This document shows positions 385-7,102 of a stretch of DNA of 64,000 nt, one piece after another. Position 1 is the stretch's first letter; each line of letters starts with the position of its first letter. The position numbers were made by a program, and so were the translations under genes. This stretch comes from Leptolyngbya sp. PCC 6406 (lineage in GTDB: Bacteria > Cyanobacteriota > Cyanobacteriia > Phormidesmidales > Phormidesmidaceae). Location: NCBI RefSeq assembly GCF_000332095.2, contig NZ_KI913949.1, forward strand, positions 5,373,673-5,437,672, written 5' to 3'. Below the pieces are notes generated by a model. It was not told the origin of the DNA. It ran no database searches and was given only the letters and a program-made list of their open reading frames with translations.

Positions 385-2391
385 ATGCGTTTACCTGCTG
401 AGTTCTTCATGTCGAGCGTTCACCGCCCTGCTGCTGTTCCCCTAGCCCCCCCTGATCCCGTTGAGCGGGCTACTGATGATCTCTTCCGGGCCTATGTTGA
501 GGCCGCCTCCGATATTGTCTATACCCTAGATATCAACGGTAATTTCACCTTTGTCAATTCCTATGGGCTGCGCCTAGTCGGGGCCACGGAAACCGAAATT
601 ATTGGCGAGCCCTATCTCAAAATAGTCGCGCCCGAATACCACGAACCTACCCTGGCAGCATTTGCCAATTTGTTACAAACCGGGGAACTGCGAGACTATG
701 AATTTGTCGTGCTCACCAGTACTGAAGAACGCATTTTTGTAGAGGTGAACGGTCGCCTGCTACTCCAAAATGGGGAACTAGTAGGAGCCCTGGGAATTGG
801 TCGAGATGTCACCGAGCGCAAGCGTTTTGAAGCCCAGCTCAAGATGTTTTCCAAGGCACTGGACTCCGCCCATGATAGTGCGGTTATGGCGGATCTGCGG
901 GGGCAGCTTCTCTATGCCAACCTGGCCACAGAGCGTATTTTTGGCCATGCTCTGGCTGCCGTTGAGCGTAGCAGCGTAGATATCTTTTTCCCTGCTTCAG
1001 GGCAAGCCCGCTGGCTCCTAGACCATGCCGTGGGCGAGGGTTGGAGTGGCCAAGTCGTCTGTCAGCGGCAGGATGGTCGCTCCTTTCCGGCCCTGGTGTC
1101 CGTGAGTCCGGTTTGTGGGGAAGACGGCAGCCCCACCGCTATTTCGATTATTTTTCGGGACATTACCCAACTGGAGCAGTTCAAGGCGGAGTTGGCGTCT
1201 AAAAATTTAGAATTGGAACGGGCCAACCGTCTGAAGTCCGAGTTTCTAGCCAATATGTCCCATGAACTCCGTACCCCCATGACCTCCATCCTGGGTTTTT
1301 CTTCTCTTCTAGAACAGCAGGTTTATGGTGATCTTAATGAACGGCAGCATCTCTACGTGAACCAAATTCATCAAAGCGGAGAACATCTTTTAACACTGAT
1401 TAATGAGGTTTTAGACCTCTCTAAAATTGAGGCGGGCCAGATGAATTTACACCTAGCACCAATTGCAGTGGATGCCCTCTGCCAGGATGCCTTGACCATG
1501 GTCGGATCTCAAGCAGCGGCAAAGCAGTTGATGATCCACCGAGCAGTGCAGACAGGCTTGGCCCCCCTCGTAGCAGATGAGTTGCGAGTGCGGCAAATGC
1601 TGCTGAATCTGCTCTCGAATGCAATTAAGTTCTCTCAAGAGCGCGGGGAAGTGGGGTTAGAGGCTCGTCGAGATGGCGATCGCATTCTCCTGACGGTGTG
1701 GGATCAGGGGGTAGGCATCCCGCTGGAAAAGCAAAACCTGCTCTTTCAGCCCTTTCAACAGCTCGATAGTTCCTTGGCTCGACAGTACGAGGGGACTGGG
1801 CTGGGACTGGCCCTAACCCAGCGTCTTGCCCGTCTGCACGGTGGCAATGTCACCCTGGAATCGGCGGCAGGGGAAGGGGCTCGATTTACCATTAACCTGC
1901 CCCTCGACTGCCGGGAAGAGTCCCTAATGGGCAGTGACACTGTGGCACAGGCGGTCTATCCCCGTGCGGCGGAAATGGTGGCCCAAGGGGGGCTCCCCCC
2001 CTTGCCAGGGCAGTCTTCTGGTCAGGTCCTCTTGGTTGAAGATCACCCCGTCAACGCCATGCTACTAGAGCACATGCTCACCTATTGGGGCTATGAGACG
2101 ATCCATGTGTCTAACGGTCAGGCGGCCCTAGACTGGCTCGGCGACCACCGACCGACGTTGGTACTGATGGATGTCCACCTTCCTGGCATGGATGGGCTGG
2201 AGGTGACGCGCCAAATTCGCAGCAATCCGAACTGGGAATCGATTCCCATTGTGGCAACTACGGCCCTGGCTCGCCGTCGCGATCGCGAACGCTGCCTAGA
2301 AGCCGGAATGCAGGAATACCTGAGCAAACCCATCAACTCCGCCGAGCTAGTCTCCGTCCTCGCAAAATATACCTGGGGCGATGATGACTGA
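385..2391 (+). CDS. PAS/PAS hybrid sensor histidine kinase with receiver domain
   Basis: A soluble two-component sensor kinase of 668 residues with no transmembrane segment, so it probably senses a cytoplasmic ligand or redox state. Two PAS/PAC modules (about residues 32-145 and 150-265) are followed by a short coiled coil and the HisKA domain with the phospho-accepting His293 in MSHELRTP. The ATPase core has the N box (NLLSNAIKFS near 408), G1 (DQGVGIP) and G2 (GTGLGLAL near 470). A C-terminal receiver domain (about 547-665) has the acidic pair in VEDHP, the phospho-acceptor Asp596 in LMDVHLPGMDG and Lys648 in LSKP, so phosphate can pass internally from His293 to Asp596. No response regulator or phosphotransfer gene lies next to it. 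The ATG at 409 is an alternative start. Confidence 0.93.
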   Translation: MRLPAEFFMSSVHRPAAVPLAPPDPVERATDDLFRAYVEAASDIVYTLDINGNFTFVNSYGLRLVGATETEIIGEPYLKIVAPEYHEPTLAAFANLLQTGELRDYEFVVLTSTEERIFVEVNGRLLLQNGELVGALGIGRDVTERKRFEAQLKMFSKALDSAHDSAVMADLRGQLLYANLATERIFGHALAAVERSSVDIFFPASGQARWLLDHAVGEGWSGQVVCQRQDGRSFPALVSVSPVCGEDGSPTAISIIFRDITQLEQFKAELASKNLELERANRLKSEFLANMSHELRTPMTSILGFSSLLEQQVYGDLNERQHLYVNQIHQSGEHLLTLINEVLDLSKIEAGQMNLHLAPIAVDALCQDALTMVGSQAAAKQLMIHRAVQTGLAPLVADELRVRQMLLNLLSNAIKFSQERGEVGLEARRDGDRILLTVWDQGVGIPLEKQNLLFQPFQQLDSSLARQYEGTGLGLALTQRLARLHGGNVTLESAAGEGARFTINLPLDCREESLMGSDTVAQAVYPRAAEMVAQGGLPPLPGQSSGQVLLVEDHPVNAMLLEHMLTYWGYETIHVSNGQAALDWLGDHRPTLVLMDVHLPGMDGLEVTRQIRSNPNWESIPIVATTALARRRDRERCLEAGMQEYLSKPINSAELVSVLAKYTWGDDD

Positions 2392-2507
2392 GCCTAAGGA
2401 TAGGTCAGGGTATCGCCCCCAGAGCCAGGGCCGATGATCATCATACTGTCCTGACTCTGTGCTGCCGATAGTTTGTCGAGACACGTCTGCGATCGCGGCC
2501 AAATCCT

Positions 2508-2554
2508 TCGGATGCTTAATCCGCTGGTTCTGGGTTCAAATCCCAGGTCACCCA
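2508..2554 (+). other. 3' half of a tRNA-Lys(CUU)-like gene; possible integration scar
   Basis: The sequence folds as the 3' half of a class I tRNA. It has an anticodon stem CGGA/TCCG around a loop containing CTT, a five-base variable region, a perfect T arm (CTGGG, loop TTCAAAT, CCCAG), and the 3' acceptor strand GTCACCC with discriminator A. The matching 5' half, which should begin GGGTGAC, is absent from the preceding 150 bases. The universal U33 is replaced by G. Tyrosine recombinases commonly integrate at tRNA 3' ends and leave such half copies, so this may be an attachment-site remnant. No integrase is visible nearby. Confidence 0.6.
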
Positions 2555-2559
2555 TTTAA

Positions 2560-3627
2560 TTAATCTATCTTCATGAGTAGCAGTCGTTGAGAATTGAGTT
2601 GAACATACCAAGGCATTTGCCGGTTCTTTAAACTTTCCCACTTTTCCTTAAACACTTCTGCCTGAAGATGATAATCATCGGAGTTAGTGGGTGGCCCACC
2701 TAATTTTAAATACAATGTCATGCGGTGGGGGGTTTCGCTGGTTGAGGCTAACCAGGCAGGCAGGGTATTCGGTTGATTAGGGGTTTCTGGAAATGTGATC
2801 TGATGGGCACGCATACCCACATGGGTATGCATGGACGACACTGACTCTACAGTTTGTAGGGTACAGTGCCAATCAAGGGCATGAATTTTCTGCGCGGTAA
2901 CGGGTTGGATGCGAGAGTAATTTTTGCACCCCGTCAGTTGAGCGACGGTGAGGGTACCGGGATGGTCAAAGATGGTTTGTTTTTGCCCTGCTGCCACGAC
3001 CTGGCCCGCAGAGAGCACCAGCAGTTTTGGACAGATCCGATAGGCTTCTTCTAGGTTATGGCTGACGAAGAGGGTTAGGCCACTGTAATTAGATAGGGTT
3101 TTAATCAGTTGCTTTTCGAGTTCGCTGCGTAAATGAGTGTCGAGGGCGGAAAAGGGTTCGTCTAGTAGCAACATATCTGGTTCTGGGGCTAAGGCTCTGG
3201 CCAGAGCAACCCGCTGTTGTTGCCCGCCAGAGAGCTGATGGGGATAGCGATCGCCCATTCCCGATAGTTTGACCTGTTCCAGTTGTTCTGTAACTTTTCG
3301 GTGAGTTGTATTTTTCGACTGCCCCCTTAACCCATAGGCAATATTTTGAGCCACCGTTAGATGAGGGAAGAGAGCATAGTTTTGGAACAAAAATCCCACC
3401 TTGCGATCGCGGCTAGGCAGGTTAATTCCCTGGCGAGAGTCATACAAAATTCGATCATTCAGCACGATCATGCCGCTGGTGGGGGTTTCAATTCCGGCAA
3501 TACAGCGCAGGGTCATGCTTTTGCCAGAACCCGAACTGCCTAAAATTCCGAGAGCGGCTGTTTTGAGCTTGAAGGCAATAGTTAGTGTGTAGTTGGGGAG
3601 TTTTTTTTGGATGTCGAAAATAAGCAT
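2560..3627 (-). CDS. modC: Molybdate ABC transporter ATP-binding protein ModC
   Basis: ATPase of the high-affinity molybdate importer. The nucleotide-binding domain spans about residues 1-235, with Walker A GSSGSGKS (near 32-39), a Q loop FLFQNYALFPHLTV, signature LSGGQQQRVALARAL, Walker B LLLDEPFSALD and an H loop with VSHNLEEAYR. The C-terminal 120 residues fit the regulatory Mop/TOBE-like region, which is weakly conserved here. At 355 residues it has the usual ModC length. It is last in a minus-strand modA-modB-modC cluster and ends six bases from the tRNA half at 2508-2554. In many cyanobacteria ModB and ModC are fused; here a 142-base spacer separates them. Confidence 0.92.
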   Translation of the reverse strand: MLIFDIQKKLPNYTLTIAFKLKTAALGILGSSGSGKSMTLRCIAGIETPTSGMIVLNDRILYDSRQGINLPSRDRKVGFLFQNYALFPHLTVAQNIAYGLRGQSKNTTHRKVTEQLEQVKLSGMGDRYPHQLSGGQQQRVALARALAPEPDMLLLDEPFSALDTHLRSELEKQLIKTLSNYSGLTLFVSHNLEEAYRICPKLLVLSAGQVVAAGQKQTIFDHPGTLTVAQLTGCKNYSRIQPVTAQKIHALDWHCTLQTVESVSSMHTHVGMRAHQITFPETPNQPNTLPAWLASTSETPHRMTLYLKLGGPPTNSDDYHLQAEVFKEKWESLKNRQMPWYVQLNSQRLLLMKID

Positions 3628-3769: not shown

Positions 3770-4426
3770 TCACCTGTCACCTTTCTCCTTTTGCCTTTCC
3801 AACAGCCTGACCCACCACAGCAAAGTAAATGCGATCGCTGTCATAATCAGCACCATCACATTCGCCAAGTCATACTTTTGGGATTGCACGGCATCATAGA
3901 TAGCGAGCGGCAAGGTTTGTGTGCGCCCAGGAATGCTGCCGCAGACCATCAGGGTTGCGCCAAATTCTCCTAGCCCTCTGGCAACGCTCAACCCAAAACC
4001 GGCCAAAATACCTCGGTAAGCAACAGGAATCGTAATTCGCCAAAGTAGCTCTAGTTCCGTAGAGCCGAGGGTACGAGCGGCAGCTTCTAGTTCAGGGCTG
4101 ACGTTAGCGATCGCCGCTCTAGTGGATTCCACCATGAGAGGCAGCGCCACTACCGTAGAGGCGATCGCCCCGGCGTGCCAGGTAAACAGCAGGTCAATCC
4201 CAAACCATTCCTTAACCGGACTACCGCGCCCCAATGCCAACAGCAGGAAATAGCCCACTACACTAGGCGGCAACACTAGCGGCAAATTGAGCAGCGTAGA
4301 CACCAAAATCTGTCCCGGAAAATCTGTCCTTGCCAACCAGATTCCCAGACCCAGACCCAGCACCAGAATCAATCCACTGGCCACGATCGTGACCTGCAAC
4401 GACAAAAGTGACGGTTCCCAAATCAT
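3770..4426 (-). CDS. modB: Molybdate ABC transporter permease ModB
   Basis: Inner-membrane channel of the molybdate importer, 218 residues with five to six hydrophobic segments. The motif LPLVLPPSVVGYFLL and the EAA loop (EAAARTLGSTELELLWRITI), which contacts ModC, are characteristic of ModB/CysT-type permeases. RGLGEFGATLMVCGSIPG is the classic ModB signature near the C-terminus. It starts 35 bases after the modA stop and is presumably co-transcribed. Its last residues (KEKGDR) are encoded by a low-complexity repeat, so the native C-terminus may have been altered. Confidence 0.92.
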   Translation of the reverse strand: MIWEPSLLSLQVTIVASGLILVLGLGLGIWLARTDFPGQILVSTLLNLPLVLPPSVVGYFLLLALGRGSPVKEWFGIDLLFTWHAGAIASTVVALPLMVESTRAAIANVSPELEAAARTLGSTELELLWRITIPVAYRGILAGFGLSVARGLGEFGATLMVCGSIPGRTQTLPLAIYDAVQSQKYDLANVMVLIMTAIAFTLLWWVRLLERQKEKGDR

Positions 4427-4461: not shown

Positions 4462-5295
4462 TTACAAAACGGATTCCTCACCGGGTAGCACAAAGCCATA
4501 TTTCTGCATCAAAGGTCTGCCCTTCTCGCCATTGATAAAGGCCGCAAATTGTTGAGCCTCTTCAGGATGAGAGGCACTTTTAGGCACTGCTAGCATTTGC
4601 TCTAGGGGGTTATGCAGTTCGGCAGGAAGCAGCATCCATTTTCCAGGCTTTTCGACGCTAATAGAGAGGGCCGCGATCGCAACATCGACATTCCCTGTTT
4701 CCGCATACTGCTGGGTCTGCTTGATGTTTTCCCCCAAGATTAACTTGGGCTGGAGTTCGTCCCAAATACCTGCCGATTGCAGCGCTTCCCGTGCCGCTAC
4801 GCCATAGGGGGCGTGGTCAGGGTTGGCGATCGCCACTCGCTTTACCTCCGGCTTCGTCAAGTCTTTAATGTCATTTATTGCCAGGACGCTATCTTCTCGC
4901 TGCCAAAGGGTTAGCCTGCCAACCCCATACAGGGCCTTCGTTTCAGAAAGCACTAGCCCCTTTGCGTCCAAATCTTCCACAAATTTCTTGTTCGCGGCAG
5001 CAAACAGATCCACAGGCGCACCGCGCTCAATTTGCTGGGCCAGTTGTCCGGTCGAACCCAAGTTAAACATGACGGTGTGCCCTGTCTCCTGCGCCCAAAG
5101 CTTGCCAATCTCTGGAAAAACGTAATTTAAATCGGCTGCCGCTGAAACCGTTAACGTCACAGGCTCAAGGGTTGGTGCCGAAGACGTCGCTGAGTTAGGA
5201 GATTGGAGATCTAGAGTAGAAACCCCACAAGCCGCCAGTAGACCTATGAAAGCGATAACAAAGAACCACGGCCATGTTGTTTTTGGCTTTTTCAT
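4462..5295 (-). CDS. modA: Molybdate-binding lipoprotein ModA
   Basis: Periplasmic solute-binding protein that delivers molybdate or tungstate to ModBC. The N-terminus (MKKPKT, hydrophobic stretch, LLAAC) is a lipoprotein signal with the lipobox cysteine, so the mature protein is anchored to the outer face of the membrane. The fold follows the extracellular binding-protein family: LTVSAAADLNYVFPEIG, NLGSTGQLAQQIERGAPVDLF, and a conserved C-terminal KYGFVLP. A TTG at 5313 would add six residues; I prefer the ATG at 5295 because it directly starts the signal peptide, although AGGAG just upstream of the TTG leaves doubt. First gene of the modABC cluster. Confidence 0.92.
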   Translation of the reverse strand: MKKPKTTWPWFFVIAFIGLLAACGVSTLDLQSPNSATSSAPTLEPVTLTVSAAADLNYVFPEIGKLWAQETGHTVMFNLGSTGQLAQQIERGAPVDLFAAANKKFVEDLDAKGLVLSETKALYGVGRLTLWQREDSVLAINDIKDLTKPEVKRVAIANPDHAPYGVAAREALQSAGIWDELQPKLILGENIKQTQQYAETGNVDVAIAALSISVEKPGKWMLLPAELHNPLEQMLAVPKSASHPEEAQQFAAFINGEKGRPLMQKYGFVLPGEESVL

Positions 5296-5460
5296 TGGCT
5301 CAAAACACCTCAAGATCTCCTAAATTCTGGCGCAAGTATGGCTTACATAGCGTCAGCATACTGACATGGAGATTACAGATGACTGAACGCTTTAGGCTGC
5401 AATTACCCGTGATTGCCCTGACACAATCTCCTTCTCAAACCCAAGATTAGACCGTTCATG

Positions 5461-6300
5461 TCATTCTGAACCCGATTTTGACTGCGGCGATCGCAGGGGC
5501 AGATGGGGTTTTGCATCACACAATAGACCGAGGGCGATCGCCACAAGTAGTCCCACTGCCAACCCATAGGGCCTGAGATTACTCCCATCTGGCATCACCA
5601 TGACGGGTATGACCCACGCCCAGGCGTTGACCGCAGTATGTAGCACGAGGGCAGGCAGCACACTTCCGCCAGTATGGTTGAATAGCCACGCAAACAGCAC
5701 CGACAGAGCCACCGTGCTCACCATAAATAGCCCAACGGGAATGTGGCTTTGCGGCGTGTCGGCCATATAAAACAGCGGCAGGTGCCACGCGCCCCACACC
5801 ATGCCCAAAACAAGGCTAGCCATGCGCCAGCTATAGCGCTCTTGCAAAACCGGCAATGCATAACCCCGCCAGCCAAATTCCTCGCCTAGCGGGCCGCCCA
5901 GTAGTAGCACCAGGCCAAAATTCACCACGGCTAGGAGCACATGCTGGGATGCGGGAGACGGGGCGATTGTGCCGCCTAAGGCGATGTGCCCAGCGGCGGC
6001 CAGTGCCATGACCGCCAGAGGCAAGAAAAACGAGAGCGCCAGCCACCAACCGCCAACTCGCCATTGCAGCGATCGCCTGAGCCAACGATGCAGCCCGTCC
6101 TGTCCATCGACATACCTCACTACCGCGATCGCTGCAATACCAGGGCCAAAACTTCCTGCGATAAACAGCACCATCCCTAAGATGGGCAACTGAGGTCTGA
6201 TCACCGAAGACAGCAGCCAGCAGATCCACGACCAAGCAAATGCCAAGGCAAAGAATACCAAAAGGCGCGGATTAAATCCTGATTTACTGTGATGTGTCAT
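5461..6300 (-). CDS. CPBP family intramembrane metalloprotease (second copy of operon)
   Basis: Polytopic membrane protein of about 279 residues in the CPBP/Abi family (related to Rce1, type II CAAX prenyl endopeptidase). The expected motifs are present in order: GGPLGEEFGWRGYALP (glutamate pair and arginine), WHLPLF (histidine) and LHTAVNAWAW (histidine/asparagine). A longer frame opens at 6390 inside the upstream gene, but the ATG at 6300 lies ten bases after that gene's stop and gives a normal N-terminus. Third gene of the minus-strand PspC-CPBP-CPBP operon. Bacterial members act in peptide maturation, bacteriocin immunity or membrane-protein processing; the substrate here is unknown. Confidence 0.85.
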   Translation of the reverse strand: MTHHSKSGFNPRLLVFFALAFAWSWICWLLSSVIRPQLPILGMVLFIAGSFGPGIAAIAVVRYVDGQDGLHRWLRRSLQWRVGGWWLALSFFLPLAVMALAAAGHIALGGTIAPSPASQHVLLAVVNFGLVLLLGGPLGEEFGWRGYALPVLQERYSWRMASLVLGMVWGAWHLPLFYMADTPQSHIPVGLFMVSTVALSVLFAWLFNHTGGSVLPALVLHTAVNAWAWVIPVMVMPDGSNLRPYGLAVGLLVAIALGLLCDAKPHLPLRSPQSKSGSE

Positions 6301-6310
6301 TGACCTATTC

Positions 6311-7102
6311 TTAGTCCACACAAACCCGCTTTTGGCGGGATAGATTTGCTTTTCCAAACACCGCGACCAAGATGATCGCCACCGCACCATTCAGAAGGGC
6401 ATAGGCGACAGGAGACACTCCAGGTATAAATGCTCCCCATATATTCAGCGCACCATGAAAAAGTGCTACAAGTAAGATACTGCCTTTAGTGCTGTTGTAA
6501 ATCCAGGTATATATAAAAGCATTGCTTACGATGATCAAGAGCCAGATTAAAGGGTACTCAGACATCGGGTTTCCGACCAAAAAGAGAGTCGGTAAATGCC
6601 AAAAAGCCCACAATGTACCCACAACCAGAGTCGCTATGAAGGCATTATTTCGATTCTGCAATCGTGGCAATGCAAAGCCACGCCACCCAATTTCTTCACA
6701 GGTATGGGCAAAGAAATTGACTATGACACCGAAAATGATATAGGGAGATAGAACAACTTGCGGTACTGAAATAGTTACGGGCATGCCCAGTAATTTCGTG
6801 ATGGCTTTCGCTGCAATGAGGAGAACCACAGGTCCCAGAATCGCTATGATGTACCAGACTAAACCAACCCGCCATCGGATTAGTCCCTCGAGCAAATTTT
6901 GAACCCCTTCCTTACCATGCGCCACCTGTGACACAATGACAGCCGCAAGTGCAGGGCCAATGGCATAAAAGATGGAAAGAACTAGGAAGTAAGTGCGGTA
7001 AAATGGGGCAATATCTCGCGAGGCTAAGACCACTGATACCATGCCAATCCATGAAATACCAAAGGCCAGGATATAAAACCAGGTAACAGGATGTTTTCTC
7101 AT
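6311..7102 (-). CDS. CPBP family intramembrane metalloprotease (first copy of operon)
   Basis: A 263-residue protein with about eight hydrophobic segments, homologous in architecture to its downstream neighbour. Motif 1 is TCEEIGWRGFALPRLQ, motif 2 FWHLPTLF and motif 3 FHGALNIWG, so all metal-binding positions are kept. Its start codon overlaps the stop of the PspC-domain gene by four bases, a hallmark of translational coupling. The base composition is more AT-rich than that of the second copy, so the two may have separate origins and not be a recent tandem duplication. Confidence 0.85.
   Translation of the reverse strand: MRKHPVTWFYILAFGISWIGMVSVVLASRDIAPFYRTYFLVLSIFYAIGPALAAVIVSQVAHGKEGVQNLLEGLIRWRVGLVWYIIAILGPVVLLIAAKAITKLLGMPVTISVPQVVLSPYIIFGVIVNFFAHTCEEIGWRGFALPRLQNRNNAFIATLVVGTLWAFWHLPTLFLVGNPMSEYPLIWLLIIVSNAFIYTWIYNSTKGSILLVALFHGALNIWGAFIPGVSPVAYALLNGAVAIILVAVFGKANLSRQKRVCVD

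Follow-up and report, generated by a model that had tools for sequence, protein, structure and literature searches.

A probable tRNA-Lys(CUU) relic next to modC of Leptolyngbya sp. PCC 6406 may have arrived with the molybdate transporter operon

How does half of a tRNA gene come to stand, without its other half, at the end of a molybdate transporter operon? The question is raised by a stretch of 64,000 nucleotides from Leptolyngbya sp. PCC 6406, which we call the window. At positions 2508..2554 of its plus strand lies the sequence TCGGATGCTTAATCCGCTGGTTCTGGGTTCAAATCCCAGGTCACCCA, a 3′ fragment of a tRNA-Lys(CUU) gene that starts with the 5′ strand of the anticodon stem and ends with base 73. 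The fragment agrees in 44 of its 47 bases with the commonest complete tRNA-Lys(CUU) gene among the cyanobacterial loci that we fetched; the next-best place for the same comparison in the window scored 25/47, and dinucleotide shuffling (50 replicates, none shorter than 99% of the window) gave 25–28/47. The anticodon reads CTT, the T stem is a perfect helix of 5 bp, and the three differences from the complete gene are TG for CT at bases 32 and 33, so that base 33 is G, and a G to A change in the T loop. The base of the anticodon stem, not the tRNA 3′ end, is where the similarity starts. A preliminary description of this DNA, which had noted a half tRNA-Lys without a 5′ half beside modC, with a perfect T arm and a replaced U33, is thus accurate as to the object itself.

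The fragment is real, but it looks like a dead relic and not like a working gene. Tested as a functional tRNA gene, it gives no cloverleaf with a D arm and both acceptor strands. ARAGORN, which found a tRNA-Glu as the only tRNA in the window, does not report it, and a search of Rfam with positions 2000–3000 returned no match at E values up to 1. The 5′ half is absent from the window when up to 3 mismatches are allowed. A split or permuted gene, which the preliminary description had named among the findings that would overturn it, was rejected, because the 5′ half was found neither there nor elsewhere in the genome. One D-arm match, at C1:4489179 (L058), was considered as a candidate 5′ half; ARAGORN finds no tRNA at this place, and by eye we judged the match to be due to chance.

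We then looked for a complete gene from which the fragment could derive. With the full-length tRNA-Lys(CUU) gene of G025 as the query and matches accepted up to an E value of 10, the strain's own genome yielded eight matches: the fragment, the tRNA-Lys(UUU) gene (77%), and six short matches of 14–22 bases with E values above 1, the D-arm match of L058 among them. RF00005 matched at 45 places, the fragment not included, and when ARAGORN was run on the loci of the best 30 of these 45 matches, it found one lysine tRNA, with the anticodon UUU. In these searches a complete tRNA-Lys(CUU) gene was not found in the genome, and tRNA-Lys(UUU) was the only lysine tRNA. Across the order, a tRNA-Lys(CUU) match was present in one of 62 other genomes (G067), where the gene is complete according to ARAGORN; 18 of the 63 genomes in this search fall outside the given completeness and contamination limits. 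With one match in 62, the tRNA-Lys(CUU) gene appears, from the genomes at hand, to be missing from most of the family; the genome searches covered a subset of species, and several relatives are metagenome-assembled or incomplete genomes. The complete gene of G067 is what speaks for decay in place, by which the lineage's own tRNA-Lys(CUU) gene would have lost its 5′ part through deletion. Against it stand the 61 order genomes without a match, the absence of any match to the window's first genes in 12 kb around the G067 gene, and the nearest kin of the neighboring mod genes, which lie outside the genus; we regard decay in place as improbable.

These neighboring genes are modC, the molybdate ABC transporter ATPase (2560..3627, minus strand; Pfam ABC_tran), the stop codon of which is 5 bp from the fragment, the permease gene modB (3770..4426, minus strand; BPD_transp_1), and the substrate-binding protein gene modA (4462..5313, minus strand; SBP_bac_11). 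The names presumably hold; they follow from the trio of genes and from general knowledge of these families. The window's ModC is 81% identical to that of G274, a metagenome-assembled genome of a cyanobacterium from another family, versus 55% to that of G001, 55% to that of G003, and 64% over 240 residues to that of G002, three genomes of the same genus that are 61–87% complete and in which a mod cluster of the window type could be missed. In a ModC tree, G274 has the highest identity to the window among 98 other rows; the window's ModC groups there with G274 and G233, which belong to another family (support of 96/64, not starred). Petrachloros mirabilis and G011 of the strain's own family join them in a group of five with support of 98/86, whereas G001 and G003 fall in a distant, separate clade. 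For ModB (87% to G274) and ModA (79%), G233, G186, and others are as close as G274 or closer. The next ModC matches in the strain's own genome reach 46% and 39% only; the ModC type of the same-genus genomes was not seen in it. On these comparisons, modC was probably acquired laterally, and the molybdate transporter of the window appears to be of foreign origin, from another cyanobacterium. This points to a molybdate transporter in the strain that differs from those found in its genus. Farther along, at 5461–7102, the window contains two adjacent Rce1-like (CAAX protease) genes on the same strand, overlapping as called.

What ties the fragment to this operon is an arrangement that the window has in common with G274. 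On contig C40 of that genome, a complete tRNA-Lys(CUU) gene is followed by modC on the opposite strand, so that the two genes stand tail to tail, with modB next and modA further on. We scanned the genome collection with the C terminus of ModC and obtained 54 loci, with at least 500 bp of downstream sequence in 50, at least 100 bp in 53, and less than 200 bp in two; a tRNA-Lys(CUU) gene or half occurs in one of them, which its length and its identical tRNA show to be that G274 contig, and a bare half in none. The operon thus has its closest kin outside the genus, as far as the incomplete same-genus genomes allow, and it is syntenic with an intact tRNA gene elsewhere. That such an arrangement is shared by chance seems unlikely. 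The tRNA and modC are separated by 5 bp in the window and by about 100 bp in G274, a spacer without conservation, and in G233, the sister of G274 (100/92), no tRNA adjoins modC, so the adjacency was either lost in G233 or gained twice.

On its other side, the fragment has a host gene at some distance. A gene for a PAS sensor kinase with a receiver domain, assigned by Pfam, occupies 385..2391 on the plus strand, and its product is 85% identical to that of G001, 79% to that of G002 (residues 115–666), and 77% to that of G003, all of the same genus, and 78% to that of G013, of the same family. In 11 relatives whose loci we inspected to at most 1.5 kb past the end of the kinase gene, modC was never found beside it. 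Between the kinase gene and the anticodon side of the fragment are 117 bp, which comprise a probable regulator stub and 51 unassigned bases.

The stub, 22 codons on the minus strand at 2443..2508 (KDLAAIADVSRQTIGSTESGQY), resembles regulators that combine a helix-turn-helix (HTH) domain of the XRE type with a PBP-like domain. It lacks the regulator's N-terminal codons and everything after the helix-turn-helix. Its identity to the regulators of loci L177 and L215 is 77% over 22 residues, in a search set that is rich in mod loci; as controls, the best match in a plasmid collection, on a Nostoc plasmid with no feature annotated there, was 68% identical across those 22 residues, and enterococcal HTH proteins reach 61%. 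The intact L177 regulator matches HTH_3 and PBP_like in Pfam, and the stub's frame gives weak family matches (HTH_3, E value of 0.067; couple_hipB, E value of 0.025). The position is that of such a regulator, downstream of modC and on its strand: 7 of the 54 loci have one there, within 110 bp in 3 (L177, L180, and L209), and one also follows modC in G186 and G198. A search of the strain's own genome with the intact regulator found no intact copy; two other HTH genes scored, and the stub was not listed. A competing reading comes from the left flank, which can be aligned with the DNA that follows the kinase gene in L048 (score of 47, versus 37 for the best of 200 shuffles) over a span that covers the stub; for the other 10 of the 11 relatives, the score was matched by one or more of the 200 shuffles. 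On balance we consider 2443–2508 a probable HTH regulator stub, to judge from the translated match and its place. If the stub is real, the tRNA piece would have replaced the start of the regulator gene. The frame next to the regulator-matching one, SIRRIWPRS...LTYP* on the minus strand (2397–2516), was rejected as a convergent gene; it has no Pfam or NCBIfam match and no convincing match in the loci compared. HTH plus PBP-like regulators of this kind, noted in L177 (8443–9597), L180, L209, L227, and L229 and in L235, follow modC in some cyanobacterial mod clusters; that of G010 is on the opposite strand, with about 2 kb between it and modC. By inference, this protein is a candidate molybdate-responsive regulator.

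Could an integrated element have left the fragment? The preliminary description had read it as a remnant of integration at a tRNA gene, and one part of that reading stands: in cyanobacteria, tRNA-Lys(CUU) is, by the gene pairs that we aligned, an integration target. A complete tRNA-Lys(CUU) gene occurs together with an extra 3′ half in at least 7 of 388 genomes of the class (G331, G144, G251, G307, G286, G216, and G239). In six of them the two share contig and strand and lie 1.7–30 kb apart, and in G286 they are on two contigs; a 33-base tRNA-Lys(CUU) piece at a contig end in G098 is not counted among the seven. When the seven halves are aligned, the shared gene sequence starts in the anticodon stem or loop, and what lies to the left of it differs among them. 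The open reading frame (ORF) that follows the complete gene in G144 is integrase-like (phrog_1, E value of 9.8e-9; PF00589, E value of 0.0013, below the cut-off), and the corresponding ORF in G331 has no Pfam or PHROG match; by eye, the likely integrase gene looks split into two ORFs in both genomes. In G331 (L124, 1–18001) and G144 (L125, 1–18001), elements of about 17 kb stand between the complete gene and the displaced 3′ half, with the ORF after the tRNA, integrase-like as shown in G144 only, and a primase/helicase-like protein; 7 of 10 element proteins scanned have no PHROG match, and the two elements are possibly an undescribed family of integrated elements. Further pairs, 1.7 to 30 kb apart, are in G216 (L129–L130), G239 (L131–L132), G251 (L126), and G307 (L127). 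A search for literature on cyanobacterial tRNA-Lys integrase islands brought up no paper on the topic, judging by titles and the opening lines of abstracts.

The main rival to the explanation that we prefer follows from these pairs. An element would have entered the intact tRNA-Lys(CUU) gene in a lineage that carried the mod genes, leaving the old 3′ half beside modC as a displaced attR, and both the element and the restored gene would later have been lost. On the one hand, the fragment is a tRNA 3′ piece that starts near the anticodon loop, like the halves in the seven genomes, one of which has the integrase-like ORF, and in the portion of PMC4383910 at hand one class of tyrosine integrases is described as cutting in the tRNA anticodon stem-loop, which fits the position of the cut and counts against a fragment merely carried along with the operon. 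On the other hand, the part of the integration reading that concerns this genome found little support in our searches. The preliminary description had named the lack of a matching complete tRNA as a refutation, and our own-genome searches found no complete tRNA-Lys(CUU) gene, on the same replicon or another; the partner site and integrase that it had also called for were not found either. PF00589, which covers tyrosine and not serine integrases, has no match in the window. In the whole genome it has one match over the cut-off (C1:1076217) and one weak partial match (C1:3607999), and the full match is 4.3 Mb from the window along the contig, or 1.17 Mb if the contig is circular. No element DNA is recognizable in the 117 bp on the anticodon side, a length that is too short to exclude an element end, and comparison of the left flank with the elements and the loci around the other halves gave only short words in common, with E values no better than 0.2. 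Bases 32 and 33 are changed in the fragment, whereas the anticodon loop is intact in five of the seven other halves (it is changed in G251 and G307). Two half-site patterns have no exact match on viral contigs, and the fragment has no match of any kind in the plasmid collection; it matches 15 phage records at 80–90%, of which 10 have a tRNA-Trp annotated there and 5 no feature or annotation. Finally, the intact tRNA-Lys(CUU) beside the closest modC, in G274, offers another source for the piece. A displaced attR therefore seems to us a doubtful, if serious, possibility.

Our tentative choice, held with a confidence just short of even, is that a tRNA-Lys(CUU) gene was severed at a recombination junction and that its 3′ part, now dead, arrived here along with modCBA. 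The donor lineage would have had this gene intact and tail to tail with modC, as G274 has today. When the block was joined to other DNA, the junction would have broken the tRNA gene where the anticodon stem starts on its 5′ side, which would leave bases 27–73 fused to the remnant of a regulator gene like those found after modC in a number of mod clusters. We infer the direction of transfer, a cut without an integrase, and the recency of that cut. The origin of the stub is less clear, because G274 has no such HTH plus PBP-like regulator and a minority of the loci have one. No close relative with an unoccupied site was found, and G274 can be no more than a relative of the donor.

The recency of the cut is inferred from a comparison of divergence. 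At four-fold sites, modC, modB, and modA are 50%, 46%, and 42% identical to their G274 counterparts, versus 94% (44/47) for the fragment and the complete gene. A pseudogene that old would have diverged to a similar extent; the tRNA gene was thus probably, on this reasoning, still complete until a recent time, in a donor more closely related to this strain than G274 is. Selection acting on the half would give the same picture as a recent truncation. A further rival is that the piece is a functional RNA or a terminator between the convergent kinase and mod transcripts. Placed between convergent genes, the T arm would indeed form an intact hairpin, and conservation of the piece is high, but neither strand has a long T run after the hairpin (by eye), none of the 54 mod loci has a bare half, and recent truncation accounts for the conservation. 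We consider such a function very improbable on these features. It is just as hard to credit that elements specific to tRNA-Lys(CUU) can still use the retained half as a landing site although the lineage lacks this tRNA; were it so, a lost tRNA gene would persist only as an integration site carried with an acquired operon.

To us, then, the fragment looks like an ordinary relic of DNA exchange. Our results suggest that a tRNA fragment can lie at the border of an acquired operon where no island is present, so that finding one is, taken alone, weak evidence for an integrative element nearby; as a mechanism the case carries little weight. Homology-facilitated illegitimate recombination would leave a foreign block with one non-homologous junction, and one such junction is what the preferred explanation implies; the likeness is an analogy, with the homologous side not located. 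Compared with the displaced tDNA fragments of Islander, as presented in the sections of PMC4383910 available to us, the fragment is alike in being a 3′ tRNA piece that starts in the anticodon region and differs in that neither a restored complete gene nor a tyrosine integrase in the window was found. In the available part of PMC9897764, tRNA fragments that result from element integration are described as widespread. Like the partial tRNA genes treated there, ours is a non-canonical tRNA gene fragment tied to transferred DNA; whereas those come, in the same account, from element integration or a CRISPR spacer, the one described here ends a probably acquired operon.
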